Of a stretch of DNA of 64,000 nt, positions 40,861 to 62,364 are shown piece after piece. The translations under genes and the position numbers were made by a program. This DNA comes from Arenimonas oryziterrae DSM 21050 = YC6267 (GTDB lineage: Bacteria > Pseudomonadota > Gammaproteobacteria > Xanthomonadales > Xanthomonadaceae). The stretch spans positions 744,001 to 808,000 of the forward strand of contig NZ_ATVD01000001.1 of assembly GCF_000420545.1 (NCBI RefSeq), given 5' to 3'. Within the stretch, counting starts at the first letter, position 1; each line of letters begins with the position of its first letter. The notes beneath the pieces were generated by a model. It was given only the letters and a program-made list of their open reading frames with translations, searched no databases and was not told the origin of the DNA.

Positions 40861-42381
40861 TCAGTGGTCCAGCACCGGCGCCGGCGCGGGACCCGCCGCC
40901 GCGTCGACCTTCAGCAGCCACACCAGCGGCAGGGCCGCGAGCGTGAGCACCATGAGCAGCCAGAAATCGTTGACGTAGGCGATGACGGCCGCCTGGCGGC
41001 TGATCTCGGCATTGAGCGCCATCACGCCCGACGCCGTCGCCGTGTCCCAGGCGGCCGGAAGCAACGAAGTTTCGACGCCAAAGGACGGCACGCGCGCAGC
41101 GATCTCGGCATGGTTGACCTGGGCCGAGCGCGCCAGGATCGTCATCACCGCCGAGATACCCACGCTCGATCCGATGTTGCGCACGAGACTGAAAAGACTC
41201 GCGGCCTCAGTACGTTTTTCCGGCGCGAGCGTGGCGTAAGCGACGCTGGAGATCGGCACGAACACCAGGCCCAGGCCCAGGCCCTGCATCACGCCGATCC
41301 ACACGACATCGAAACGCGCGACCTGCAGGCCGAAGGCCGTCATGAAATACAGCGAGCCCGCCGTGAGCAGCATGCCCACCAGGATCGGCCAGCGCGCATC
41401 GACGCGGCCGATCAGGCGACCGACCAGCATCATGCCGAACATGGTGCCGATGCCACGCGGCGCCAGCAGCAGACCGATGTCGAGGACCGGATAGTGCATG
41501 AGCTGGCTCAGGTACGGCGGCAGCAGCGCGAGCGTGGAAAACAGCACGATGCCGATCACGAAAATCAGCAGGCACGCGACCGCGAAATTCTTGTTCCGCC
41601 ACAGGCCCAGATCGAGCAGGCTGTGCTGGCGACTGCGCCAGTGCATGACGTACAGGTACAGACCCAGGAACGCGAGCGCGGCTTCGATCTGGATTTCCAG
41701 CGAACCGAACCAGTCCAGCGACTGGCCGCGATCGAGGAACAACTGCAGGCCGCCGATACCCAGCGCCAGCAGAACCAGTCCGGTCCAATCCAGCGGACGC
41801 GAGACCGCGCGATCCTTCGGCACGCTCGCCATGATGCCCAGCAGCGCGAGCGCGCCGACTGGAACATTGATCAGGAACACCCAGCGCCAGCTGTAGTACT
41901 CGGTCAGCCAGCCGCCGAGCGGCGGCCCGAGAATCGGACCGACCATGATGCCCATGCCCCACAGCGCCATCGCGGCGCCGTGTTTTTCTTTCGGGAAGAC
42001 ATCGAGCAGCAGCGACTGCGAAATCGGCACCAGCGCGGCGCCGAACACGCCCTGCAGGATGCGGAAGAACACCATCTCGCCGATGCCGGTGGCGATGCCG
42101 CACAGCACCGACGCGGCAGTGAAGCCGGCCACTGCCATGATCAGCAGGCGGCGGCGACCCATCGCGCCGGCGAGCCAGCCGGTGACCGGCGTCATGATCG
42201 CGGCGGCGACGATGTAGGAGGTCAGCACCCACGCGGCTTGGTCCTGCGTCGCCGACAGCGAGCCCTGCATTTCCGGCAGGGCCACGTTGGCGATCGTGGT
42301 GTCGATCGCCTGCATCAGCGTCGCCAGCATGACCGAGCCGACGATCAGGCTGCGCTTGGCGACCGCAGGCGTGTTGCTCAC
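40861..42381 (-). CDS. emrB: EmrB-type DHA2 drug:H+ antiporter
   Basis: 506-residue major facilitator with about 14 transmembrane helices. Motifs: MQAIDTTIANVALPEM in TM1, WVLTSYIVAAAI, LAGAMGRRRLLI loop and GPILGPPLGGWLTEYYSWRWVFLINVPVG (motif C region). It works with EmrA to push hydrophobic toxins across both membranes. It starts 19 bases after emrA and is the last gene of the marR-emrA-emrB unit. Confidence 0.93.
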   Translation of the reverse strand: MSNTPAVAKRSLIVGSVMLATLMQAIDTTIANVALPEMQGSLSATQDQAAWVLTSYIVAAAIMTPVTGWLAGAMGRRRLLIMAVAGFTAASVLCGIATGIGEMVFFRILQGVFGAALVPISQSLLLDVFPKEKHGAAMALWGMGIMVGPILGPPLGGWLTEYYSWRWVFLINVPVGALALLGIMASVPKDRAVSRPLDWTGLVLLALGIGGLQLFLDRGQSLDWFGSLEIQIEAALAFLGLYLYVMHWRSRQHSLLDLGLWRNKNFAVACLLIFVIGIVLFSTLALLPPYLSQLMHYPVLDIGLLLAPRGIGTMFGMMLVGRLIGRVDARWPILVGMLLTAGSLYFMTAFGLQVARFDVVWIGVMQGLGLGLVFVPISSVAYATLAPEKRTEAASLFSLVRNIGSSVGISAVMTILARSAQVNHAEIAARVPSFGVETSLLPAAWDTATASGVMALNAEISRQAAVIAYVNDFWLLMVLTLAALPLVWLLKVDAAAGPAPAPVLDH

Positions 42382-42400
42382 GGCAAAGCGTTCCGTGGAC

Positions 42401-43489
42401 TCAGCGCGCAGCCGTACGCGCCGGTGCCGGCGCGTCGGCGTCGTCGGCGATGTCGACGGTGACGTCGGCGCTCATGCCGGCGCGCAGCACGGGCGCATTC
42501 TGGGCGACGTCGACGAGCGACAGCTTCACCGGAATGCGCTGAACGACCTTGACCCAGTTGCCGGTCGCGTTCTGCGCCGGCAGCACGCTGAACTCGCTGC
42601 CCGACGCCGGGCTGATCGAAGCGACCTGCGCATGCCAGCGCACGCCCGGATAGCTGTCGATGCGAATCTCGGCTTTCTGACCCACACGCATGCGCGCCAG
42701 ATCGGTTTCCTTGAAATTGGCTTCGATCCAGACCGGATGGGTCGCGACCAGCGGCATCGCCACCTGACCGACCGTGAGGTATTCGCCCGGCTGCAGGTCA
42801 TGATTGCCGATGATGCCGTCCACCGGCGCATAGACATCGACATGCTCGAGATCCAGGCGCGCGCGGTCACGCAAGGCCAGGGCTTCGCGGTAGTCGGGCA
42901 ACTGCTCCAGCGTCGAACCGGGCTTGCCGCCCAGGGTGAGCCGAGCCTTGTCGCGCGCAGCAACGGCGCTGTCGCGGCTAGCCTGCGCTTCGGACATCGC
43001 ATGGCGCGCGTCGTCGACGGCTTTCTGCGCGACCAGATGGCGCGCGAGCAACTGTTGCTGGCGCGAAAGCTCCTGCTTCGCCCAAGCCAGGGTTTCTTCC
43101 GACGAACGTACCGAGGCATCGCTTTCGCGCACGCCGGCACGGCTGGCGCCGGCATCGTCGGCGACCTTGGCCAGACGCGCTTCGGCTTCGGCCAGGGCGA
43201 TCTTCAGCGGCGCCGGATCGATGCGGTACAGCAGCTGTCCCAGGTGCACGGCTTCGTTCTGCCCGACCAGGACCTGCGACACGCGGCCGCTGACCTGCGT
43301 GGAAATCATCACGCGATCGGCCTTGACGTAGGCATTGTCGGTTTCGACGCTGCGACTGGACACGACAAATTCCCAGGCGAACAGCGCGATCACGAGTAGC
43401 GGACCGGCGATCCACAGCCAGCGCGGCACGCGGCGCACGGCGGCCTTGGCTTCGTTGAGACGCGCGGCGGGTTTGAGTTCGGTGGTCAT
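42401..43489 (-). CDS. emrA: EmrA-type membrane-fusion protein
   Basis: 362-residue adaptor of the EmrAB pump. A short cytoplasmic tail precedes one transmembrane helix at about 25-45. Then come the lipoyl half (SGRVSQVLVGQNEAVHLGQ), a long alpha hairpin (about 90-190) and beta domains (YAPVDGIIGNHDLQPGEYL). Its ATG overlaps the MarR stop by four bases. The C-terminal Ala/Pro/Asp tail is low complexity. Confidence 0.92.
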   Translation of the reverse strand: MTTELKPAARLNEAKAAVRRVPRWLWIAGPLLVIALFAWEFVVSSRSVETDNAYVKADRVMISTQVSGRVSQVLVGQNEAVHLGQLLYRIDPAPLKIALAEAEARLAKVADDAGASRAGVRESDASVRSSEETLAWAKQELSRQQQLLARHLVAQKAVDDARHAMSEAQASRDSAVAARDKARLTLGGKPGSTLEQLPDYREALALRDRARLDLEHVDVYAPVDGIIGNHDLQPGEYLTVGQVAMPLVATHPVWIEANFKETDLARMRVGQKAEIRIDSYPGVRWHAQVASISPASGSEFSVLPAQNATGNWVKVVQRIPVKLSLVDVAQNAPVLRAGMSADVTVDIADDADAPAPARTAAR

Positions 43490-43965
43490 GCTTTTGCCTG
43501 CTTGCGGGCCGCCATGGGGCGACCTTCCTTGTCGAGTTCGTTGAGCGTGTCCTTGACCTTGGCCAGGACGCGCAGGGTGGTGGCGAGATCGTCGGCATCG
43601 ATGCCTTCGAGCACGTCCTCGCGCAGCACCGAGGAAATGCGCTTCATGCCGGCCATGACCTCGGCCGATTTCGGCGCGAGGTACAGGCACCAGCAGCGGC
43701 GATCGTCAGGATCGGCGCGGCGTTCGATGAAGCCGGCGATCTCCAGGCGGTCGACGACGCGGCCGATGGCGATCGGTTCGAGGTCGAGATCCTCGGCGAG
43801 CTGCTTCTGGCTCAGGCCTTCGGCGCGCTCGATGCGGCTCAGCGCGCGCCATTGCGCACGGGTCAGGCCCAGATGGGCGGACCGGCGGTCGAACACGCGC
43901 CGGAACAGGCGGGTGATGTCGGCCACGGTGTAGCCGAAGGTCGATTTGTCGGGGGATGGGCTCAT
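43486..43965 (-). CDS. MarR-family regulator of emrAB
   Basis: About 159-residue winged-helix repressor. The recognition region LSQKQLAEDLDLEPIAIGRVVDRLEIAGFIERRADPDDRR matches MarR/EmrR. It very likely represses its own operon and is released by pump substrates. A consensus promoter (TTGAAA-17-TATAAT) lies immediately upstream. Its predicted start point falls after ATG 43974 and just before ATG 43965, so 43965 is the better start and the leader is only about four bases. Direct ATAGT repeats in the promoter may be the operator. Confidence 0.87.
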   Translation of the reverse strand: MSPSPDKSTFGYTVADITRLFRRVFDRRSAHLGLTRAQWRALSRIERAEGLSQKQLAEDLDLEPIAIGRVVDRLEIAGFIERRADPDDRRCWCLYLAPKSAEVMAGMKRISSVLREDVLEGIDADDLATTLRVLAKVKDTLNELDKEGRPMAARKQAKA

Positions 43966-43975
43966 AGTAGCCATG

Positions 43976-44748: not shown

Positions 44749-45759
44749 TCAGGCCGACTTGACCCACTCGCCGAGCGCGGCCAGGCCGTTGTCCTTGGCG
44801 CGGGCGAACACGGTCTGCTGGGCGACGCCGACATTGCCGACGAGATCCTTCGACCATAGCTTGAGCGCGGCGGTCTGCATCGCGCGGCCGTAGCTGAAGC
44901 TCAGCGGCCACGGCAGCGGGCCGAGGTTGTTCATGGCGTTGAGGTGCGCGGTCGCCGCCTCGTCGCTCTGGCCACCGGACAGGAACACGATGCCCGGCAG
45001 GTTCGCCGGCACGGCGGCCTTCAGGCAGCGCACGGTGAGTTCGGCGACTTCGTCGACGCTGGCCTGCTCGGGGCAGTCCTTGCCGGAGACGACCATGCTC
45101 GCCTTGAGGATGGTGCCTTCGAGCATGACGTTCTGGTCGTACAGCGCAGCGAACAGCGAACGCAGCACGATCTCGGTCACTTCGTAGCAGGTATCGATGT
45201 CGTGATCGCCGTCCATGATGACTTCGGGTTCGACCATCGGCACGATGCCCGCTTCCTGGCAAAGCGCGGCGTAGCGCGCGAGCATGTGGCTGTTGGCTTC
45301 GATCGCCGTGCCCGAGGGCATGTCTTCGCCGATGTTGATCACCGCGCGCCACTTGGCGAACCGCGCGCCGAGCTGCGCGTATTCCTTCAGGCGCTCGCGC
45401 AGGCCGTCGAGACCTTCGGTGACCACTTCGCCCGGGAAACCGGCCAGCGGCTGCGGGCCCTTGTCGACCTTGATGCCCGGGATGATGCCGTTCTTCATCA
45501 TCAGCTCGGTGAACGGCACGCCGTCCTTGGTCTTCTGGCGCAGCGTCTCGTCGAACAGGATCGCGCCGGAAATGTACTCGCCCAGGTTCGGCGTGGTCAG
45601 CAGCATCTCGCGATAGGCGCGGCGGTTTTCTTCGGTGCAGTCGATGCCGACGCCGTCGAAACGCTTCTTGATGGTGGAGTTGGACTCATCGATGGCGATG
45701 ATGCCCTTGCCGGCGGCCACCATGGCCTGGGCGATTTCAGCGAGTTGGTCGATGCTCAT
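44749..45759 (-). CDS. Class I fructose-bisphosphate aldolase
   Basis: 336-residue metal-independent aldolase of glycolysis and gluconeogenesis, of the eukaryote-like class I type. IAIDESNSTIKKRF near 22-35, the Schiff-base lysine in GTILKASMV, and PEVIMDGDHD and FLSGGQSDEAA are diagnostic. A TATAAT at 45795-45790 lies about 31 bases before the ATG. It is the last of four glycolytic genes on this strand (gapA, pgk, pyk, fba). Confidence 0.95.
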   Translation of the reverse strand: MSIDQLAEIAQAMVAAGKGIIAIDESNSTIKKRFDGVGIDCTEENRRAYREMLLTTPNLGEYISGAILFDETLRQKTKDGVPFTELMMKNGIIPGIKVDKGPQPLAGFPGEVVTEGLDGLRERLKEYAQLGARFAKWRAVINIGEDMPSGTAIEANSHMLARYAALCQEAGIVPMVEPEVIMDGDHDIDTCYEVTEIVLRSLFAALYDQNVMLEGTILKASMVVSGKDCPEQASVDEVAELTVRCLKAAVPANLPGIVFLSGGQSDEAATAHLNAMNNLGPLPWPLSFSYGRAMQTAALKLWSKDLVGNVGVAQQTVFARAKDNGLAALGEWVKSA

Positions 45760-45850: not shown

Positions 45851-46417
45851 TCAGCCGCCGTTGAGGCGGCGCTGCCAGCGGAAATGCTCCAGTTTGTCCT
45901 GGGCGGTTTCGCCTTCGAGACGTTTTTTCTCGATGAAGTCACCGAGGTTGGTGATCGCGCACTGGGTGCGCACGCTGGCGGCGTCGGCGCCGGTCTTGCC
46001 ACCGAAGAACATCATCGTCGCCGAGGTATAGAGCGGACGCGGCACCGGACCGTCGACCTTGCGCGCGAAACGCCACTGCGTCACCGCCGCACCGGCCGCC
46101 TGCACGAAGGGTTCAAGCTCGGCCTCGGGCAAGGCGCCGCCGCTGGTCCAGGATTTCAGCAGCATGAGGTCGGAGACCTTGCCGTCGCGGTTGATCATGT
46201 AGCCGATGTTGACGCACACATCCAGGCCGCGATCCGACTGCGCCTTGGGATAGGCCGGTGCAGACAGCACCACGCCATCGGCGAAACGCCACCAGGTGCC
46301 GATGCTGCCTTCGTTGACGACATCGCGCTTGACCACGACTTGCGCGGAAGCGAGCGTACAAGCGACGGCCAGTGCGCCGGCGAGAAGGGTGCGGGTGAGA
46401 CGGGCGACAGGGCGCAT
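45851..46417 (-). CDS. Secreted TonB-fold protein, tandem paralogue 1
   Basis: 188 residues. The signal peptide ends near residue 25 (TLASAQ). The body has VCVNIGYMINRDGKVSDL, then a helix and QWRFARKVDGPVPRPLYTSATMMFFGGKTGAD. This is the strand-helix-strand plan of a TonB C-terminal domain without the transmembrane and Pro-rich parts. A conserved Cys pair (DVCVN, TQCAI) may form a disulfide. Function unknown. It is the most diverged of three adjacent copies. Confidence 0.7.
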   Translation of the reverse strand: MRPVARLTRTLLAGALAVACTLASAQVVVKRDVVNEGSIGTWWRFADGVVLSAPAYPKAQSDRGLDVCVNIGYMINRDGKVSDLMLLKSWTSGGALPEAELEPFVQAAGAAVTQWRFARKVDGPVPRPLYTSATMMFFGGKTGADAASVRTQCAITNLGDFIEKKRLEGETAQDKLEHFRWQRRLNGG

Positions 46418-46492
46418 GGTCGTACTCCGGGTGGAAGGCGACCTGTCTACCAGAATCGGGCATCGGCGGCAATTTGCCGCCACCCGGCGCGC

Positions 46493-47077
46493 TTATTTCA
46501 GATGCGGCATGTGCTCGGAATGCGTGCGGTCCCAGCGGAAGCTCGCGAGCTTGTCGCGGTTGGTCACGACATCGTTGCGGCGCTCGTCGATGAACCCGGC
46601 CAGATCGGCGATCGCGCAGTGCGAACGCACCGCGACCGCGTCCGCGCCGGTCTTGCCGCCGAAGAACATCAGCGTCGCCGAGGTGTACACCGGGTGCGGC
46701 ACCGGGCCGTCGGCCTTGCGCGCAAAACGCCACTTCGACAGTGCAAAGCCAGCGGAATTGACGAAGGCATCGAGCTCGTCTTCGGACAGCGCCGAGGCGC
46801 CGTCGCTCCAGGACTTGAGCAGATAGAAATCCGAGGTCGTGCCGTCGCGATTGATCATGTAGCCGATGTTCACGCAGACGTCCGCACCGCGGGCCACGAA
46901 CTGTTGGGGATAACGCGGCGCGCCGGGCACGACGCCGTCGGCGAGCGTCCAGTAGCGGCCGATGCCGCCTTCGTCGATTACTTCGCGCTGCACGACGGGC
47001 TGCGCCGTCGCCAAGGCACAGCTCGCCGCGAGCACGCCAGCGAGGAGAGGACGAAACGTCTTGAGAGCTTTGCGCAT
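46493..47077 (-). CDS. Secreted TonB-fold protein, tandem paralogue 2
   Basis: 194 residues. Signal peptide to about 26 (ALATAQ). It shares GADVCVNIGYMINRDG, KWRFARKADGPVPHPVYTSAT and MFFGGKTGADA with its neighbours. The C-terminal region RDKLASFRWDR is also common to the family. The leader just upstream of the ATG is nearly the same as that of paralogue 3, so the duplication included regulatory DNA. Function unknown. Confidence 0.7.
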   Translation of the reverse strand: MRKALKTFRPLLAGVLAASCALATAQPVVQREVIDEGGIGRYWTLADGVVPGAPRYPQQFVARGADVCVNIGYMINRDGTTSDFYLLKSWSDGASALSEDELDAFVNSAGFALSKWRFARKADGPVPHPVYTSATLMFFGGKTGADAVAVRSHCAIADLAGFIDERRNDVVTNRDKLASFRWDRTHSEHMPHLK

Positions 47078-47220
47078 GGCCGGTCTCCGCGGGGACTGGC
47101 TTCGTGTTTAACCAGCCACGCGCGCGTGCGGCAATCGCTGCGGGACGAACGGCACCGGCGCAGGGACGAACCGCGCGCCGGACCGGACCGCCGTCGGCGG
47201 CCTCGCGGACGCCGCTCGCT

Positions 47221-47808
47221 TTATTTGAGCGTGGGCAGGACCTCGGAGAAGTTCCGGCGCTGATGGAAATGGGCGAGCTTGTCGCGGTTGGTGTCGCCGC
47301 CGTTGCGCCATTCGTCGATGAATTCGGCCAGGTCCGGGATCGCGCAGTGCGCGCGGATGCTGCTCGCGTCGGCACCGGTCTTGCCGCCGAAGAACATCAT
47401 CGAAGCCGAGGTATAGACCGGATGCGGCACCGGACCATCGACCTTGCGGGCAAACCGCCATTGCTTCATCACGGCCGCCGCGGGCTGCAGGAAGGCATCC
47501 ATTTCGCTGTCGCTGAGCGCCTGCTCGCCTTCGCTGCTCCAGAACTTGAGCAGCAACAGGTCCGACACGCTGCCGTCCTTGTTGACCATGTAGCCGATGT
47601 TGACGCAGACATCCGGCGCGCGCGATTCCATGGCCTTGGGATAGGACGGCGAGCTCAGGGTCACGCCGTCGGCCAGACGCCACCAGCGGGCGATGCTGCC
47701 TTCATTGACGACGTCGCGCTGATACAGCGGCTGCGCCAGGCCGACGCTGGAGGCGGCGGCGAGCACGCCGGCGAGGAGGTTGCGGGTGAAACGAACGGTG
47801 GGGCGCAT
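47221..47808 (-). CDS. Secreted TonB-fold protein, tandem paralogue 3
   Basis: 195 residues. Signal peptide to about 25 (SVGLAQ). It shares PDVCVNIGYMVNKDGSVSDL, QWRFARKVDGPVPHPVYTSAS, FFGGKTGADA and a RDKLAHF tail with copies 1 and 2. It is first in the array, 128 bases after pyk. The 143-base gap to paralogue 2 holds that copy's own leader and no terminator. A periplasmic role is inferred from the signal peptide alone. Confidence 0.7.
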   Translation of the reverse strand: MRPTVRFTRNLLAGVLAAASSVGLAQPLYQRDVVNEGSIARWWRLADGVTLSSPSYPKAMESRAPDVCVNIGYMVNKDGSVSDLLLLKFWSSEGEQALSDSEMDAFLQPAAAVMKQWRFARKVDGPVPHPVYTSASMMFFGGKTGADASSIRAHCAIPDLAEFIDEWRNGGDTNRDKLAHFHQRRNFSEVLPTLK

Positions 47809-47936
47809 GGCCGGTCTCCGTGGGGACAGGCCTTGTGTTTACCGCAGGCGGCGCCCCGCACTCCCACGCCGGGGATGAGACGTGTCGAACCGGGGACGAG
47901 CCGTGCGCCGCGCGGGCCGGGCCCGATGGCGCCCGC

Positions 47937-49403
47937 TCAGAGTTCGCCGAGCCCTTCCGCGCTGCCGTCGGCTCCGACCTGCAGCAGACGCAGGGTGTTG
48001 GTCGCGCCATGCAGTTCCATGTGGTCGCCGCTGGTGACGACTACACGGTCGCCCGAGACCAGGATATCCAGATCGTACAGCTGCTTGATCGCGCCACGCG
48101 CGGCTTCGCGCGTGGGCAATCCGCGGCTGTCGAAATCGATCGGGAACACGTCGCGCATCAGCGCCATGCGCCGGCGCGCGCCGGCATGCCGGGACAGGCC
48201 GAAGATCGGCACCTTCGAGCGGAACCGCGACAGATAGCGGGCGGTGCCGCCGGACTCGGTCAGTGCGAGGATCGCGCGCACCTGGATGTGTTCGGCGAGG
48301 AACATGCCGGCCATCGCGATCGCCTGGTCGGCGCGCTCGAGATTGCGCGGCGCGGCTTCGAAATCGGTGTCGTGATCGAACTGGCGTTCGGCGCCCAGGC
48401 AGATGCGCACCATCGCCTCGACCGCCTTGACCGGGTACTGGCCCGAGGCCGTTTCCGCCGACAGCATGACCGCGTCGGTGCCGTCGATGACGGCATTGGC
48501 GACGTCGAGCACTTCGGCGCGCGTCGGGATCGGATTGTCGACCATCGACTGCAGCATCTGCGTGGCGGTGATCACCACGCGGTTATATTCGAGCGCGGTG
48601 CGGATGATCTTCTTCTGCAGGCCAGGCAACTCGGCATCGCCGATTTCCACGCCCAGATCGCCGCGCGCGACCATGACCGCGTCCGAGGCCTCGGTGATCT
48701 CGACCAGATTCTCGATCGCCTCGGCGCGTTCGATCTTCGCGACCAGGCCGGCATCGCTGCCCGCGGCCTTGGCCAGGCGACGCGCTTCGTGCATGTCTTC
48801 GGCCGACCGGCAGAACGACACGGCGAGAAAATCCACGCCCAGTTGCGCGGCGATGACGATATGCGCCTTGTCCTGATCGGTCAGCGCGCCCAGCGAGAGG
48901 CCGCCGCCGAGACGATTGAGGCCTTTCCGATTGGACAGGAAACCATCCGTGAGCACGGTGGTGTGGATGCGCTCGCCGTCGATCGCGTCGACCTTGACTG
49001 CCATCAAGCCATCGTCGAGCAGCAGGGTGTCGCCCACGCGCACGTCGGCCACCAGACCCAGATAGCTCACGCCGACCTGGGTGGTATCGCCGTCGGGCGC
49101 ATCGGCGCTGCACACCAGGGTGAAGGCCTGCCCGGACTTGAGCTCGACCTTGCCCGCGGCGAATTTCTCGATACGGATTTTCGGGCCCTGCAGGTCGGCA
49201 AGGATGCCGACTTCGCGGCCTTCGCGGGCGGCGGCGGCGCGCACGGCGGCCACGCGCTCGCCGTGTTGTTCGGGCGTGCCATGCGAGAAATTCAGGCGCA
49301 CGACATTGACGCCGGCGCGGACGAGGCCGTCGAGCACGCCCGGCGCATCGGTGGCCGGGCCGAGGGTGGCGAGGATCTTGGTACGGCGAAAATCGAAGCT
49401 CAT
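47937..49403 (-). CDS. pyk: Pyruvate kinase
   Basis: 488-residue glycolytic enzyme that makes pyruvate and ATP from phosphoenolpyruvate. Motifs: RRTKILATLGPAT at 6-18, NFSHG, DLQGPKIRI, VAKIERAEAIENL with the active-site Lys, MVARGDLGVEIG, TATQMLQSM and DVANAVIDGTDAVMLSAETA. The C-terminal allosteric domain is complete. It lies between pgk upstream and fba downstream on the same strand. Confidence 0.96.
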   Translation of the reverse strand: MSFDFRRTKILATLGPATDAPGVLDGLVRAGVNVVRLNFSHGTPEQHGERVAAVRAAAAREGREVGILADLQGPKIRIEKFAAGKVELKSGQAFTLVCSADAPDGDTTQVGVSYLGLVADVRVGDTLLLDDGLMAVKVDAIDGERIHTTVLTDGFLSNRKGLNRLGGGLSLGALTDQDKAHIVIAAQLGVDFLAVSFCRSAEDMHEARRLAKAAGSDAGLVAKIERAEAIENLVEITEASDAVMVARGDLGVEIGDAELPGLQKKIIRTALEYNRVVITATQMLQSMVDNPIPTRAEVLDVANAVIDGTDAVMLSAETASGQYPVKAVEAMVRICLGAERQFDHDTDFEAAPRNLERADQAIAMAGMFLAEHIQVRAILALTESGGTARYLSRFRSKVPIFGLSRHAGARRRMALMRDVFPIDFDSRGLPTREAARGAIKQLYDLDILVSGDRVVVTSGDHMELHGATNTLRLLQVGADGSAEGLGEL

Positions 49404-50110: not shown

Positions 50111-52381
50111 TCAGGGCCGGTCGGTTTCGCGATACGGCTTCTTGCTGCGGTAGCCTGCCAGCCGCTCGCGCATTTGCGCGATGGACGCATTGTCCGGCTC
50201 CGCTTCCAACATGCCGGCGATCGCCTGCTCCTGCAGCGTGACTGCACGGTCGAACTGGCCGCTCGCCGCATGGCAGGCTGCCACCGTGTCGATGGTGCTG
50301 GGGGAGAGATCGGCCGGATCACCCAGCTTGTCGGTGACCTGCTTGCCTTCGGCCGGTCCATACACTGCGGCCTCGGGCGACGTGCACAAGGCCCAGGCCA
50401 GATTGTTGCCGTACTCGGGCTGCTTGCGCACCACCTCGCGCCACAGCGTCAGCGCGCGCGCCTTCGAGGCGGCATCGCCCTTCTTGTAGTACAGACGCAA
50501 GGCATAGGTGTCCATGACCTGCACATCACCCGCATCGAGGCCACGCTGGAACCAGCGCTCGCCTTCCTTCTCGTCGACCTGACCGAAATCACCGTTGATG
50601 TATGCGTCGGCCAGCAGGACCTGGGAATAGCGATCGTCCTTCTCCGCATCCACCAACAGAAACTGGCGGGCCTGCGCGACGTCTTTTTCCACGCCCTTGC
50701 CGGCCAGATACATCCTGGCCAGATTGCGTCGTGCTTCCGCAGAGTCGTGATTGGTCGCCACCGAGCGGTAAATCTCGACGGCACGCTTGGGATCGCCGTC
50801 CAGGGCTTTTTCCCCGGTCTCGTAGAGCGATGCCAAGGCCATCGCACCCTCGGCGCTGCCATAAATGGCCGCACTGCGGAACCATTCGGCCGCCGGCATC
50901 CATTCCTTGTTACGCCATGCCTGATGACCAAGAGAGATCATCGACTCGGTGTTGCCGCCAGCCGCCGCCTCACGCCACCAGTGCAGGGCCTGAGCCTGGT
51001 CCTTGGGAACGCCTTGCCCGAAATAGAACAGGCTGCCATAGACACTTTGCGATGGCGCACTGCCGACTTCCGATGCCTTGCGCAGCCACTCGACGTAGCC
51101 CGGGGAGCGATCCTTGTTGTACAGATCGAGTCCAACCAGTGCTGTCGCCGTCGCCTCGCCGGCCTTGGCGTGCGTCATCAGGATCGCTGCCTGCTCCGGC
51201 ACGATCTTGAAATCGCGCGTCGTCGCGAACTGACGATTGATCGTCAGCACCAGTGGGAGCGGATTGCCCAAGGCCGTGGCCCGATCCAGTCGCGTCTGCA
51301 GCGCGGGTGAGAACGGGCGCTGTTTGAGGCCGAGGAAATAGCCGGCATAGGCTACCGACGCTCGTCCGCCGCCCCATTGCTGCTCGGCGGCATCAATCAA
51401 GGTCATCGCCGAGGCTTCGTTCTTGGCCACGCCGATACCTTCGGAATACGCCAGCGCCAGCAACACCATCGGGATCGCGTGATGTGCTTCGGCCTGCGGC
51501 AGCAGCGCATCGACGAGGCCTTCGCCGCAACCGGGGAAGGGCTGCTGGTAGCAGATCCCAAACCAGGTCGCGGTCGACTGGATGCCGCCGCGCTCGGCCA
51601 ACGGACGGAGCCTGAGCACCTTGTCCTCGGCCTTGGGCAAGGCGATGGCGGCACGTGCCGTCGCGATGTCGAGTCCCATCAACACCTGCGTCTTCGCCAA
51701 TTCGGCGATGAAGGCATCGGACAGCTGCTTGCGGTAGGACGGATAGGCCGCTGACGGGTCGCGCGTGACGCGCGTCATGGTGTCGAGGAAATCAAAGCGC
51801 AGATGGCGCTCGAGCTTGGTTTCCGGATCCCATGTCGCCAACCGCACGATCAGGTAGCGACCCAGGGACGGCTCCAGGAATTCGTAGCGCACTTCCAGAC
51901 CGGCGGCAAAAACGAGGGCATCGATATCACGCCCGACCACGACGCGGATCGGCGCCGCACCCGGGTCATCGGACGCGCTTGCAAGCGCATGCCGCGCAAT
52001 GGCGCTGAAGATTTTCAGATGCCGCTCGGCCGCTGCCTCGTCGCCCTCGGCCTCGGCACAACGGAACGCGGCATAGCGAATCGCCGCGCCCACGGGAACG
52101 GTCGCCAGCGATGTCTCCAGCTCAGCGTGATTGGCCGCGCAGGCCGCGGCATCCGCCTTCCAGTCGGTGCCGACCACTTTGGGCACTACCGCATAGGAGG
52201 CGATGACGTCCTTCGAATCCGCCGTGTCCAGGAACCGTTGCCATTGCACGGCGGGATCGAAGGCGGCCGCGGCGGACGGCTTGTTCGCCGGCGCCTGCGC
52301 CAGAGCAGCGCAGGGTGCCAGCGCGAGCAACAAGGCCAGGGCCGGTACAGACCGGGACAGCACAGACATAGCCGCTTTCAT
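50111..52381 (-). CDS. Secreted SEL1/TPR-like repeat protein
   Basis: 756-residue exported protein. Signal peptide to about 28 (AALAQA). Residues 30-300 are unassigned, with an LxYxEFLEPSLGRYLIVRLATWD region. From about 310 to 690 there are SEL1-type repeats (AxxGxxxA patterns such as YGSLFYFGQGVPKDQAQALHWW and ARMYLAGKGVEKDVAQAR), probably a protein-binding solenoid. It starts four bases after the DUF3857 gene with AAGGAAAG as ribosome site, so the two are one operon and probably act together in the periplasm. Confidence 0.78.
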   Translation of the reverse strand: MKAAMSVLSRSVPALALLLALAPCAALAQAPANKPSAAAAFDPAVQWQRFLDTADSKDVIASYAVVPKVVGTDWKADAAACAANHAELETSLATVPVGAAIRYAAFRCAEAEGDEAAAERHLKIFSAIARHALASASDDPGAAPIRVVVGRDIDALVFAAGLEVRYEFLEPSLGRYLIVRLATWDPETKLERHLRFDFLDTMTRVTRDPSAAYPSYRKQLSDAFIAELAKTQVLMGLDIATARAAIALPKAEDKVLRLRPLAERGGIQSTATWFGICYQQPFPGCGEGLVDALLPQAEAHHAIPMVLLALAYSEGIGVAKNEASAMTLIDAAEQQWGGGRASVAYAGYFLGLKQRPFSPALQTRLDRATALGNPLPLVLTINRQFATTRDFKIVPEQAAILMTHAKAGEATATALVGLDLYNKDRSPGYVEWLRKASEVGSAPSQSVYGSLFYFGQGVPKDQAQALHWWREAAAGGNTESMISLGHQAWRNKEWMPAAEWFRSAAIYGSAEGAMALASLYETGEKALDGDPKRAVEIYRSVATNHDSAEARRNLARMYLAGKGVEKDVAQARQFLLVDAEKDDRYSQVLLADAYINGDFGQVDEKEGERWFQRGLDAGDVQVMDTYALRLYYKKGDAASKARALTLWREVVRKQPEYGNNLAWALCTSPEAAVYGPAEGKQVTDKLGDPADLSPSTIDTVAACHAASGQFDRAVTLQEQAIAGMLEAEPDNASIAQMRERLAGYRSKKPYRETDRP

Positions 52382-52385
52382 CGCT

Positions 52386-54434
52386 TTACTTTCCTTCTTC
52401 TTTTTCCGGTTCCATGGCATTGCGCAACAGATCCTTGAGCCGCTGATCGCGCTCGCTGCTGCGCACCTGGGCCGGCATGCCCAGGGTCAGGCGGGCATTG
52501 AGCGCGTCATGAATCTCGCGCAGGTCGGTCAGATATTTTCCGACCTGGGGCGTATCGACATGATCGCTGCGAAGATCGAACTGGTGCACGAGTTTGACGA
52601 CGCGATTTTCTTGCGACAGCGTGCGGCGATAGTCGATCAGTTCGCCGGAAACGACCAAGTTCTGCGGCAGATCGGACAGCACCCAGCCCGCGGGCAGTTC
52701 AATGCGCACTTCGTGACGCAGCTTGGAAGGACGCGATAATCGCATGGGCTCCGTGCGCGCCATCGAGTCGGGCAAAGCTGCATCCTTCGACAACGCGTCG
52801 GCGTAGGCCGAAAGATTGCGGCTGCCGCCGCTGGCTTTGCCCCAGACGCCTTCAAGCAGGTAGTGCTCGCTGTAGACGACGGTGTTTTCCTTGTCGTCCT
52901 CGCGCACCGTCATCGGAGTGACGATGCTCAGGTCGCCATACTGCTTGCGGTAGTAGTCCGCGAAATCGTCGGAGATCTGTTCAAGCCGGCGCGAGCGCAG
53001 GCGCTGCCGCGTCAGCTCGGCGCGCTCGCCGCGATAGTGCGATTCGACGAACAGGTCGATCGCCTTGCCATCGGCGCGCGGCACGAAGCGCTCCACCACG
53101 CTGAGTTCGTTCTTGACGCCATCCGGCGCACGGACCTCTTCCAAGGCCGTGGCGCCGGTCACGATCGGCAGGGCCATGCCGTAATCGATCAGATCGAGCT
53201 GGCGGATGTCTCCGCGCTGCTGGGTCAGCGTCGGATCCAGCCACAGGGTTTCTTTGCCGATGCGCACGCGCACGATCACATGGTTGAAGGCCGATGCCGA
53301 CGGAAGGCGCTCGGCGATGGCGCGGCCGCGACGCGTCGATACCAGGGCCGGATCAGCCTGGATGCCCAGGCGACGCAGCAGCATGGCCGACAAATAGGCC
53401 TTGTCCTTGCAGTCACCGTAGCGGCGCGACCAGATCAGGGCCGGTGGATTAGGTCGGTGCGTGTTGTCGCCCATCTCGATGCCGAAATAACGCACTTCCT
53501 CCTGCATGGCACGCAAGACCGCGCCTGCCTGCTGGTATGCGTCAGGGAGCTTCTTCCACTGCTCGAGCCGCGTCTCGAGTTCGGCCGGCAACGGCGCATC
53601 CATCGGATACAGGGGCAGCGCCCATTGCACGATGTCCGACCAACTGCGCTTGTTGCCCACCAGGACGGCCGGGTATGGGCTGTACCAGTTGGGGTAGTCG
53701 CCCATGTCGCGGATCGCGGGGGTCAGCTCCGCGTCGAAGGAGACTTCGAGGCGATCGGCGTGCCGCACCTGCAGCACTTTCTCCTCGGTGCGCAGACGCT
53801 GGACGCTGATCTGCGCCGCGGGATCGAAAAGGACGCGGCCGTGCTGTTCGAGAATGGTATCGATCCAGCCCACGGTGAAAGCCGTGGTGATGTTGTCGCC
53901 CATGATCGGGTTGCTGCCATTGATCGAATAGACAACGCGGACCACATCGTGAGCGCGTACGTCCTCCAGAACCAGCAGCGCCGTCACCTCGCCGTCGGAC
54001 ATGTTCTCTTCGAAATCGGTTTCGCGCCGCGCCAGCGACACCTTGGCGGCGTCCAGGCGATTGCTCCACTTGCCATCCCGGCGCACCTCAATGCGGTGCA
54101 GGGTCAGGGTCTGGAACAAGGGGCTGAAGCTGACGCTGAACTTCGCCGCTTCATCGACCATTCCGGCCGACAGGGGCTCGAACGCACGGTCGAAATAGGC
54201 GACATGGCCGCCGCCGCGGCGATCGACCTGCTCGTCGATGAGCCAATTGCGCCAACGCTCGTCCGTGTCCGGCGTCTTGCTCGCCGCGGCCCACTGATCA
54301 GGCACGCTGCGCACCTGTACGAACTCCGGTGCAGGCCCCACGTTGAAGCGGAACTCGCCGCGCTCATGGGTGACCATTTGCGCGCCCGCCATCGAGGATG
54401 ACAGCAGGCCCAGGCACAACAACAGAATACGCAT
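52386..54434 (-). CDS. DUF3857/transglutaminase-like secreted protein
   Basis: 682-residue exported protein. Signal peptide to about 18. The DUF3857 beta domain covers about 40-230. A transglutaminase-like domain at about 260-400 keeps its triad: Cys in RYGDCKDKAYL, His in SAFNHVIVRV, Asp in LWLDPT. The C-terminal beta-rich region covers 430-660. This layout is common in Bacteroidetes and Lysobacterales; the substrate is unknown. ATG 54434 is chosen; TTG 54449 is also open. It lies 11 bases after pgk and may ride on its transcript. Confidence 0.82.
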   Translation of the reverse strand: MRILLLCLGLLSSSMAGAQMVTHERGEFRFNVGPAPEFVQVRSVPDQWAAASKTPDTDERWRNWLIDEQVDRRGGGHVAYFDRAFEPLSAGMVDEAAKFSVSFSPLFQTLTLHRIEVRRDGKWSNRLDAAKVSLARRETDFEENMSDGEVTALLVLEDVRAHDVVRVVYSINGSNPIMGDNITTAFTVGWIDTILEQHGRVLFDPAAQISVQRLRTEEKVLQVRHADRLEVSFDAELTPAIRDMGDYPNWYSPYPAVLVGNKRSWSDIVQWALPLYPMDAPLPAELETRLEQWKKLPDAYQQAGAVLRAMQEEVRYFGIEMGDNTHRPNPPALIWSRRYGDCKDKAYLSAMLLRRLGIQADPALVSTRRGRAIAERLPSASAFNHVIVRVRIGKETLWLDPTLTQQRGDIRQLDLIDYGMALPIVTGATALEEVRAPDGVKNELSVVERFVPRADGKAIDLFVESHYRGERAELTRQRLRSRRLEQISDDFADYYRKQYGDLSIVTPMTVREDDKENTVVYSEHYLLEGVWGKASGGSRNLSAYADALSKDAALPDSMARTEPMRLSRPSKLRHEVRIELPAGWVLSDLPQNLVVSGELIDYRRTLSQENRVVKLVHQFDLRSDHVDTPQVGKYLTDLREIHDALNARLTLGMPAQVRSSERDQRLKDLLRNAMEPEKEEGK

Positions 54435-54445
54435 GCAATTTCTCT

Positions 54446-55621
54446 TCAAGGACGACGGGCCTTCAGCGCCGCCACAGCCGGCAGCTCCTTGCCCTCGCAG
54501 AACTCGAGGAAGGCACCGCCGCCGGTGGAGATGTAGCTGATGCCGGACTCAACCCCGTATTTATCCACTGCGGCGAGCGTATCGCCACCGCCGGCGATCG
54601 AAAATGCAGGCGAGTTGGCAATTGCGCGCGCCAAAACCTCGGTTCCCTTGCCGAAAGCGTCGAATTCGAACACGCCGACCGGCCCGTTCCAGATCACGGT
54701 GCCCGCCGACCGGATGAGCTCGGCGTAGCGCGCGGCGGTGTCGGGACCGATGTCGAGGATGAGATCGTCGGCACCGACATCGGCGACCGCCTTGACGGTG
54801 GCCGGGGCATCGGCTGCGAACGCGGTGGCGACCACCACGTCGCTGGGCACGGGGATATCGGCGCCGCAGCCTTTCGCATCGGCCATGATTTTCTTCGCGG
54901 TATCGATCAGATCGTGTTCGCACAGGGATTTGCCGACCGGCAAGCCCATCGCCGCGATGAAGGTATTGGCGATGCCGCCGCCGACGATCAGCTGGTCGAC
55001 CTTGCCGACGAGATTGCCGAGCAGTTCAAGCTTGGTCGAGACCTTCGACCCGGCGACGATCGCCAGCAGGGGCCGCGCCGGATGCTCGAGCGCCTTGGCG
55101 AGCGCATCGAGCTCGGCCATCAGCAGCGGGCCGCCGCAGGCGATTTTCGCGTGGCGGATCGCGCCGTGCGTGGACGCCTGCGCACGGTGCGCGGTGCCGA
55201 ACGCATCCATGCAATAGACGTCGCACAGGGCCGCGTATTTTTTCGACAGGGCCTCGTCGTCCTTGCCCTCGCCGACGTTCATGCGGCAATTCTCCAGCAG
55301 CACCAGCTGGCCCGGCGCAACGTCGACGCCGTCGATCCAGTCGCGGATCAGGGGCACGTCGCGGCCGAGCAATTCGCCCAGGCGCTTGGCGACGGGCGCC
55401 AACGAATCCTCTTCGCTCCACACGCCTTCCTTGGGCCGGCCCAGATGCGAGGTGACCATGACCGCCGCGCCTTTCTCCAACGCCAGACGCAGGGTCGGCA
55501 GGGCCGCGGTGATGCGTTGTTCGGACGAAATCTTTCCGTCCTTGACCGGGACGTTGAGGTCTTCGCGGATCAGGACGCGCCGGCCGGCGAGATCGAGGTC
55601 GGACAGACGGAGGATGGACAT
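54446..55621 (-). CDS. pgk: Phosphoglycerate kinase
   Basis: 391-residue cytoplasmic enzyme that makes ATP and 3-phosphoglycerate. Motifs: [13 protein letters not shown] near 19-31, [43 protein letters not shown], and the C-terminal GGGDTLAAV phosphate loop. AGGAGCTGCC precedes the ATG. gapA lies upstream on the same strand beyond divergent GNAT and Sua5 genes. Confidence 0.96.
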
Positions 55622-61116: not shown

Positions 61117-62364
61117 CTACGGCGAGGACGACTGACCGGAACTCGCCGGCGCCGGCGACTCGGGCTCGAACTGGATCGGCACGCGCACCCAGCCTTCGAC
61201 GGGCTTGCCGTCGGAATCGCGGCTGGCATTGCTGAAGTGCCATTGCGACGCGGCCTCGATCGCGGCCTGATCGAAAACGCCGGCCGGTTCCGAACTTTCT
61301 ACTTGCACTTGCTTGACGTTGCCGTCGATACCGACGAGCAGCTTCAGCATGACCTTGCCGCGCAGGCCTTCCGCCTTCGCCGCGTCCGGATATTTCGGCG
61401 GTGTCAGCACGTCGCCTTCGGTGATGCGGGTGACGCTGGGCACCGGCGCCGGTTGGGCGACGGTCGGCGACGGCTTCGGTGCGGCGTAGGCCGGTTGTGC
61501 GATCCAGGCGGCGTAGCTGCCGGTGGCGACGACGACGGCGACCAGCATCGCGCCGGACAACCGTCGCGCGGTGCCGGGCAGTGGATGTTTGAGCATGGCG
61601 ATTCTCTCCTTGAGCGGATGATTCGAAGGCCAATGGCAGCCGAGCGGCAAACCGAATTCGGCCAGTTGGGTTTTCAGCATCGCGTCGCCGTACGTGCGCC
61701 GGGATTTGGGGAACTGCTGCAACACGACGGCATCGCAGGCCAGCTCCTGATCGAAGCGGAAGCGCGTCGCCGCGTAGTGCACCAGCGGGTTGAACCAGAA
61801 CAGGCAGCGCAGAACGCTCGCCAGGGTTTGTGCATGCACATCGCCGCGGCGCAGGTGCACCTGTTCGTGCGCCAGCACCAGCGCCTGTTCGTCGGCGTTG
61901 TAGCGTTCGCGGAAATCGGTCGGCAGCACGATGCGCGGACGCAGGAATCCGGCGACAGCGGGACCGTGTCCGATCACTTCGTCATAAGGCAGATGCGCAT
62001 GCCGTTGCACAAGCCGGTTGAAGTTCGTCTGCCGGCGCGCGATCACGATCAAGAATGCGACCATGCCCAGCAGCCACAGCGGCAGCAGCCAGGTCGCGGC
62101 GGCGGGCGCCGACGCGGTCCAGGCTGACGCCAGCGACTGCGGCAAGCCGATGGTCACGGCGGGCGCGATGACTGGCAGTGTCTGCGGCGACGGCGCGGGC
62201 AGCAGTACGGCCAGCACCGCCAACGGCGCGCCGACCCACAGCACATAGGCAACGCGCGCACCCCATCCGCGTCGCAGTGGCTGCCGCACCAGGGCGATGA
62301 ACACGATCGCCGCGCTGATCGCCAGCGTCGCCTGCCCCAATTCGGTCAACAGATCAGCGTTCAT
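61117..62364 (-). CDS. BlaR1-type M56 membrane peptidase fused to a TonB C-terminal domain
   Basis: 415-residue inner-membrane protein. Transmembrane helices lie at about 10-30, 36-57 and 88-110. The M56 zinc peptidase loop has HEQVHLRRGD (HExxH), and another helix is near 270-290. The TonB C-terminal domain is at about 315-400 (PPKYPDAAKAEGLRGKVMLKLLVGIDG, FDQAAIEAASQWHF). It lacks the penicillin-sensor domain of true BlaR1, so the signal is not a beta-lactam by this route. Its ATG overlaps the blaI end by 11 bases. Confidence 0.87.
   Translation of the reverse strand: MNADLLTELGQATLAISAAIVFIALVRQPLRRGWGARVAYVLWVGAPLAVLAVLLPAPSPQTLPVIAPAVTIGLPQSLASAWTASAPAAATWLLPLWLLGMVAFLIVIARRQTNFNRLVQRHAHLPYDEVIGHGPAVAGFLRPRIVLPTDFRERYNADEQALVLAHEQVHLRRGDVHAQTLASVLRCLFWFNPLVHYAATRFRFDQELACDAVVLQQFPKSRRTYGDAMLKTQLAEFGLPLGCHWPSNHPLKERIAMLKHPLPGTARRLSGAMLVAVVVATGSYAAWIAQPAYAAPKPSPTVAQPAPVPSVTRITEGDVLTPPKYPDAAKAEGLRGKVMLKLLVGIDGNVKQVQVESSEPAGVFDQAAIEAASQWHFSNASRDSDGKPVEGWVRVPIQFEPESPAPASSGQSSSP

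Follow-up and report, generated by a model that had tools for sequence, protein, structure and literature searches.

Tandem genes for predicted leader-bearing TonB-type domains between the pyruvate kinase and aldolase genes of Arenimonas oryziterrae

Three paralogues between pyk and fba

We analyzed a 64,000-nucleotide stretch of the Arenimonas oryziterrae DSM 21050 genome (the window), in which the slot between pyk and the class I fba gene is filled by three intact minus-strand paralogous open reading frames (ORFs) arranged in tandem (Table 1). A sequence-only reading of this DNA had described three tandem paralogues within a glycolytic block, and the intact ORFs with their flanking pyk and fba genes bear this out. 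For copy 1 the start was set at the ATG at 46417, replacing the GTG at 46483 of the mechanically called ORF. Farther out, the glycolytic block contains a type I GAPDH gene (TIGR01534, above cut-off) and a phosphoglycerate-kinase-like ORF that scores 433 bits with NF010569, which is below the cut-off of that bifunctional model. The Sel1-repeat and DUF3857 protein genes lie between this ORF and pyk, and fba is adjoined by a gene for a DUF6498 protein, just past which is a group of regulator and efflux genes.

Table 1. Coordinates of the features discussed, given as positions in the window.
Feature	Position	Strand	Remarks
Copy 1	45851-46417	minus	188 aa; architecture as in copy 3, by alignment; highest TonB_C score of the three
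Copy 2	46493-47077	minus	194 aa; same architecture as copy 3; putative cleavage after ATA
Copy 3	47221-47808	minus	195 aa; Sec-type leader, residues 1-25; putative cleavage after GLA
Copy 3, mature part			predicted TonB-CTD-fold domain with Cys43 and Cys130 (mature numbering); low-confidence tail (model)
Pyruvate kinase gene, pyk	47937-49403	minus	upstream neighbour by transcription; NF004491 621 bits, TIGR01064 511 bits, both above cut-off
Class I fructose-bisphosphate aldolase gene, fba	44749-45759	minus	downstream neighbour; NF033379 520 bits, above cut-off
60-base DNA leader of copy 3	47809-47868	minus	GGAGA ribosome-binding-like motif; resembles copy 2 leader
60-base DNA leader of copy 2	47078-47137	minus	resembles copy 3 leader
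Terminator-like palindrome	47078-47101		within the copy 2 DNA leader; read on the other strand
Sel1-repeat protein gene	50111-52420	minus	
DUF3857 protein gene	52386-54449	minus	
MarR regulator, EmrA-like and EmrB-like efflux genes	40861-43974	minus	
BlaR1/MecR1-like sensor gene fused to a TonB C-terminal domain	61117-62364	minus	sensor part below the BlaR1/MecR1 cut-offs; TonB part TIGR01352 59 bits, above cut-off

Copies 2 and 3 have DNA leaders that resemble each other for about 55 bases, with a local score of 58 relative to a maximum of 31 in 300 shuffles. The shared leaders noted in the sequence-only reading therefore hold for these two copies, whereas the leader of copy 1 is weakly like that of copy 2 (score 34, shuffle maximum 31) and does not rise above chance relative to that of copy 3 (score 26, shuffle maximum 30). 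A consensus scan between the genes gave neither a promoter nor a minus-strand terminator-like site, a result that is silent on co-transcription either way. A conserved RNA hairpin ahead of each copy was also considered and rejected, as 58 leaders gave a mean z of -0.19 with z < -2 in only three of them.

Predicted fold, paired cysteines and export leader

AlphaFold2 models of mature copies 3 and 2, each with a pLDDT of 85.2 and a pTM of 0.79, were compared with the PDB by Foldseek, where ranks 1 to 16 were all TonB-type C-terminal domains, FusB included. The best match was to the P. aeruginosa TonB C-terminal domain (6fip, E 1.6e-5), and HasB matched weakly (E 0.13). VIA comparisons aligned 99 residues of either copy to 6fip with an rmsd of 2.9 (Z 9.0 for copy 3, Z 9.1 for copy 2), relative to a Z of about 4 for the best unrelated rows. 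For copy 3, TonB-type domains ranged from Z 5.6 to 9.0, with FusB at Z 6.6-7.5 and the TolA C-terminal domain at Z 3.0-4.7. Sequence searches lead to the same domain. Specifically, a 29-sequence profile run against PDB sequences at E<=10 gave seven matches, all of them TonB (best E 1.2e-4), and hhalign matched the family to four TonB_C domains of the A. oryziterrae genome with a probability of 97.4 over 64 columns. Pfam TonB_C (PF03544) is the sole plausible family match of the copies; taken singly, copies 1, 2 and 3 score 22.5, 16.9 and 15.5 bits relative to a curated cut-off of 24.6, and copy 1 together with its in-frame neighbours reaches 25 bits in the genome search. This model matches 44 of 56 members at E<=0.01, and TIGR01352 (tonB_Cterm, cut-off 27.1) matches 12 of the 56 at the same E value, giving 14.1 bits with copy 1 and no match with copies 2 and 3. 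Since sequence profile and predicted structure agree, the modelled fold of copies 2 and 3 is that of a TonB C-terminal domain. This is the fold that the sequence-only reading had proposed, with structure prediction named beforehand as the check, and the models of these two copies returned no unrelated fold.

Aromatic residues that are common to TonB domains are kept in copy 3 (Tyr48, Trp92, Phe94 and Phe114), and in its model two extra C-terminal helices (residues 123-130 and 135-144) follow strand 3. Strand 3 itself has a mean conservation of 2.78 bits over 56 rows, with Thr108, Thr/Ser111 and Phe114 each present in 54 of the 56. However, strand 1, strand 2 and the WRF strand have comparable values (3.11, 2.57 and 3.19 bits), so that the conservation of strand 3 may merely reflect that of the core.

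The three copies are 59-61% identical in pairs, and their alignment confirms the earlier observation that both cysteines and the motifs WRFARK and FFGGKTGADA are common to all of them. The latter motif is absent from 55 relatives, where a looser form is seen (F-x-G ... LRxxC). As for the cysteines, exactly two are present after residue 28 in 80 of 81 proteins, a set composed of 58 proteins from the same taxonomic family, 17 from family f12 and six from family f7 (two f12 rows, L181 and L194, began at a late start). The exception, the f7 protein F7_L077, has a row trimmed at residue 175, and the third cysteine of its frame lies beyond that point. C65 and C152, in the numbering of the 56-row alignment A2, are invariant in all 56 rows. 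In copy 3 the start of strand 1 holds Cys43, and the helix that follows strand 3 holds Cys130, so the second invariant cysteine sits in the C-terminal extension, outside the TonB core. Because two mature cysteines are kept this widely, we infer a disulfide that is absent from TonB.

All 58 same-family proteins have an N-terminal hydrophobic core and a small-x-small site, and 56 of them have K/R before the core; these calls come from a home-made rule, and the starts had been chosen by a rule that favours K/R. The signal peptide of the sequence-only reading is upheld by this simple rule, in that the copies carry a Sec-type leader and are probably exported. A leader-like segment alone is not decisive, because TonB too has an N-terminal membrane helix, which passages of PMC12905483 describe as bearing the motor-contact His in an SHLS motif. 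A simple sequence rule gave no sign of such a motor-contact-His helix in the family: a His occurs within the hydrophobic core in four of the 58 same-family proteins, in none of the 17 f12 proteins and in none of the six f7 proteins. Among the 81 proteins, the segment from residue 30 to the first cysteine has a median length of 33 residues (17-58) with a median of three Pro, which gives no sign of a periplasm-spanning Pro-rich linker. The TonBs of the same genome (L001 and L002) have both a His-bearing helix and a Pro-rich linker.

The sequence-only reading had called free TonB domains with a signal peptide uncommon. This is only partly right, because other leader-bearing proteins with a single TonB_C domain exist, both in the same family (L258 and L259) and elsewhere in the class (L261 and L263). 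A class-wide search with a mixed profile gave mostly ordinary TonB-like proteins among the 37 loci or stretches examined of the matches listed. L258 (G029:C1:2593104-2593451) contains no cysteine; it combines a leader with a TonB_C-like domain, and its N-terminal motif is a different one. The A. oryziterrae genome also encodes a lipoprotein-like protein (L004, 721-1722 of G000:C3) with LAAC after its hydrophobic start, a Pro-rich stretch and a TonB_C domain.

Distribution of the family and divergence of its members

A three-row profile run on 247 same-family genomes matched 36 at E<=0.001. With a 56-row profile nearly all true members scored above about 120 bits and TonB cross-hits scored 25-45 bits, and three divergent ones scored in between, with 63 bits in G040, 58 in G046 and 43 in G131. 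We counted 31 of the 247 genomes as members after dropping six weak matches (G047, G131, G152, G208, G216 and G218) and adding G046; G038, which has a divergent gene in the slot, is outside this count. Homologues are found in Lysobacter, Luteimonas, Pseudoxanthomonas, Thermomonas and MAGs, and within the genus Arenimonas two of 13 genomes are members, namely the window genome with three copies and G246 with one. A contig scan with copy 3 alone as the query found no relative, and a plasmid tblastn search gave no match.

In all 29 member genomes examined apart from the window genome, the family genes adjoin pyk and/or fba. Specifically, both neighbours are present at 22 loci, pyk only at five and fba only at one, and the remaining locus (G102) is filled by copies, with pyk reached once the locus was shifted. 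Both neighbours came into view in G099, G151 and G149 when shifted or longer loci were read. At all 28 loci where a neighbour is in view, the copies are encoded on its strand. Counted within loci that end 1,500 bases beyond the best copy, 12 of the 29 have one copy, ten have two, six have three and one has five. The genome with five copies in its slot (G102) has a sixth outside it (L219, G102:C1:494205-494699). In G040 the divergent gene keeps its place behind pyk even though fba is located about 55 kb away, and in Luteimonas gilva one copy is on the far side of fba.

DNA upstream of fba was also taken from 80 same-family genomes selected for having no strong match (G040 apart, which was included for its displaced fba; G004, G085, G092 and G098 were left out), a sample that gives no occupancy rate, as well as from 40 genomes spread over nine further families of the order. 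In 71 of the same-family survey genomes both pyk and fba are in view; the gap between them is shorter than 450 bases in 51, is at least 450 bases and holds no match in 19 (the ORFs listed there look unrelated), and contains a divergent member in one (G038, E 7e-5). In family f12 a predicted secreted homologue of about 150 residues is present on the same strand in the slot of 17 of 21 genomes (E 2e-5 to 1e-13); fba was recognized in 20 of the 21, and with pyk also in view the homologue is present in 16 of 17. The f12 set aligns with the main family by hhalign at 98.1%. No slot match was found in two f2, two f3, one f5 and one f9 genomes with both neighbours in view, and in the remaining other-family genomes pyk was out of view or fba was unrecognized. 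The leader-bearing relatives in f7 (hhalign 99.5%) are at other addresses, for example behind folP-glmM. In G252 and G262, which belong to a different family of the order from the window genome, a leader-bearing TonB-like gene (L225 and L226, respectively) directly follows folP-glmM-like genes named by eye. Two close homologues in f3 (L222 in G312, E 2e-49, and L223 in G306, E 3e-45) have neither pyk nor fba adjoining within the 5-6.5 kb read.

Between the window copies dN/dS is 0.39-0.45 and dS is 0.65-0.86, and these values show that purifying selection has maintained the copies since they arose by duplication at an intermediate time. The three cluster together in a tree of the 81 proteins (support 100/99), indicating a private duplication, and private duplications are seen in other genomes too. 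The tree also suggests that an upstream and a downstream type separated in one older event; L034, L035, L030 and F7_L078 are on long branches of unsure place. Tandem amplification is supported by multiple copies in several relatives and private duplications in the tree, and the claim that the array is expanding agrees with the private duplication in the window. However, a dS that is not recent, two members among 13 genomes of the genus, and a short, empty slot in 51 of the 71 survey genomes without a strong match indicate gain and loss rather than one-way growth. By these sequence comparisons the copies come and go by lineage.

In three genome pairs the slot genes have dN/dS values of 0.23-0.52 and identities of 51-77%, relative to 0.08-0.21 and 86-96% for pyk and fba of the same pairs. 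In most comparisons the slot genes also have a higher dS (0.40-1.53) than pyk and fba (0.13-0.46), so the fast change is in part shared by synonymous sites. The pattern, as estimated from these alignments, is one of fast change under constraint. Gene-wide positive selection was considered and rejected, with dN/dS at 0.16-0.52 wherever dS could be estimated in the correct frame; two G149/G166 pairs were saturated, and the out-of-frame pyk row of G149/G166 was discarded.

Possible roles and relation to known systems

The reading that we favour, to which we give about an even chance, is that the slot genes encode Sec-exported, soluble periplasmic peptide-binding domains of TonB type that are uncoupled from the proton motor. 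Each protein would consist of a short N-terminal extension, one TonB-type domain (strand-strand-helix-strand) and a C-terminal helical extension that the putative Cys43-Cys130 disulfide (copy 3) would tie back to the start of strand 1. Because they seem to lack the membrane helix and long linker through which TonB is driven by ExbB/ExbD, the proteins would be free binding domains acting without energy. Their most likely ligand would be an extended peptide segment of an envelope partner, bound by strand addition at strand 3 in the manner of the TonB and TolA domains; parts of PMC3602595 and PMC11658791 describe TonB boxes pairing with strand 3 of the TonB domain. The genes share the orientation of pyk and fba, and transcription perhaps continues into them from pyk; the different, quickly diverging copies would probably serve different partners. 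TonB boxes are not favoured as the partner, because the family is more frequent where TonB-dependent receptors are few: fewer than 18 Plug matches are present in 23 of 31 member genomes relative to 55 of 216 others (raw counts, uncorrected for kinship, completeness and genome size), and the A. oryziterrae genome has nine.

Several other explanations have to be weighed. Many long ORFs overlap on both strands here, as would be expected if the three genes were spurious or degenerating reading frames within intergenic DNA of high GC content; we give this practically no weight and count it as refuted by conservation at the protein level, the two-cysteine rule and dN/dS values below 1, and the only stop among the matched rows is in the divergent G040 row. 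Unusual short energy transducers, in which the leader remains uncleaved and anchors the protein in the membrane, with ExbB/ExbD or TolQ/TolR as the motor, would be in keeping with the N-terminal membrane helix of TonB itself (as in passages of PMC12905483). They are nonetheless very improbable given the small-x-small site in every same-family protein, the rarity of His in the hydrophobic core, the roughly 33 residues before the first cysteine, which would be too few to cross the periplasm, the His-bearing helix and Pro-rich linker of the genome's own TonBs, and the location beside pyk and fba. A third explanation is that the TonB fold has been reused for something unrelated to strand addition, such as an envelope scaffold or a small-molecule-binding protein, with the C-terminal helices and the disulfide closing the binding edge. 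The extra helices after strand 3 could indeed cover its edge, and the second invariant cysteine lies within them rather than in the TonB core, but the aromatics shared with TonB are kept, and we regard such a reuse as possible though doubtful.

The remaining explanation makes the proteins a decoy or brake. Free domains would hold TonB boxes, either those of outer-membrane receptors or those of bacteriocins and phage proteins riding on TonB, without supplying energy, and so reduce TonB-dependent import while the glycolytic genes are expressed, or block parasites. Soluble TonB C-terminal fragments inhibit TonB functions, and a TonB C-terminal fold without sign of motor parts is what such a role would call for; divergence that outpaces pyk and fba and tandem gain and loss would both fit a shifting partner. 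However, members are commoner in receptor-poor genomes and gene-wide dN/dS is below 1, and we consider the explanation unlikely. The buffering of a large receptor repertoire was rejected, since the Plug association runs in the opposite direction. Membership in a defence or phage family was rejected as well: none of the three copies matches a PADLOC model at E<=1, none matches PHROG, and viral structures gave no match at E<=0.001. If the proteins did hold TonB-box partners un-energized, outer-membrane import or immunity would be tied to carbon flux. The fullest version, in which disulfide-locked, motor-free TonB decoys in the pyk-fba cluster of at least two families have diversified by lineage and couple import or immunity to carbon flux, strikes us as quite unlikely.

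In known systems the TonB domain forms the tip of an arm that is driven by energy. The slot family retains this tip, apparently without the arm, has a likely disulfide in addition, and occupies a single metabolic address in two bacterial families. Together these features suggest a second, passive periplasmic life of the TonB domain. In addition, slots with none, one and up to five copies provide natural knock-outs and gain-of-copy strains for a partner search.

With respect to known systems, a leader joined to a TonB_C domain is not new as a general architecture, because L258, L259, L261 and L263 also consist of a leader and one TonB_C-like domain; these proteins are without the two-cysteine pattern at these places and were encountered outside the loci considered above. 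Within the reach of the literature searches, neither the two-cysteine family nor its location among glycolytic genes appears to have been described, and the portion of the TolA/TonB survey PMC12204202 that we cite describes no such family and does not use "Xanthomonad" in its main text. The TolA C-terminal domain (1lr0, 6s3w) has a related fold that gave lower Z scores than TonB, and the tol-pal neighbourhood of TolA is not seen beside the window copies. FusB and HasB (7zc8, 9hi3, 2m2k) are dedicated TonB paralogues that likewise have a TonB-type domain, in their case specialized for one system, and a part of PMC7593965 reports that FusB interacts directly with its ferredoxin cargo. They are described as import-energizing transducers, whereas the slot proteins are predicted to be soluble and stand-alone. 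Finally, the slot proteins have in common with the TonB C-terminal domain (PF03544; 6fip, 6i97, 1u07, 2gsk) the strand-strand-helix-strand order, the YP motif, the DG turn, the W-R/K-F motif and the terminal Phe. Relative to TonB they have no sign of a motor-His membrane helix or a long Pro-rich linker, and they add two conserved cysteines and a C-terminal helical extension, with genes that lie between pyk and fba.
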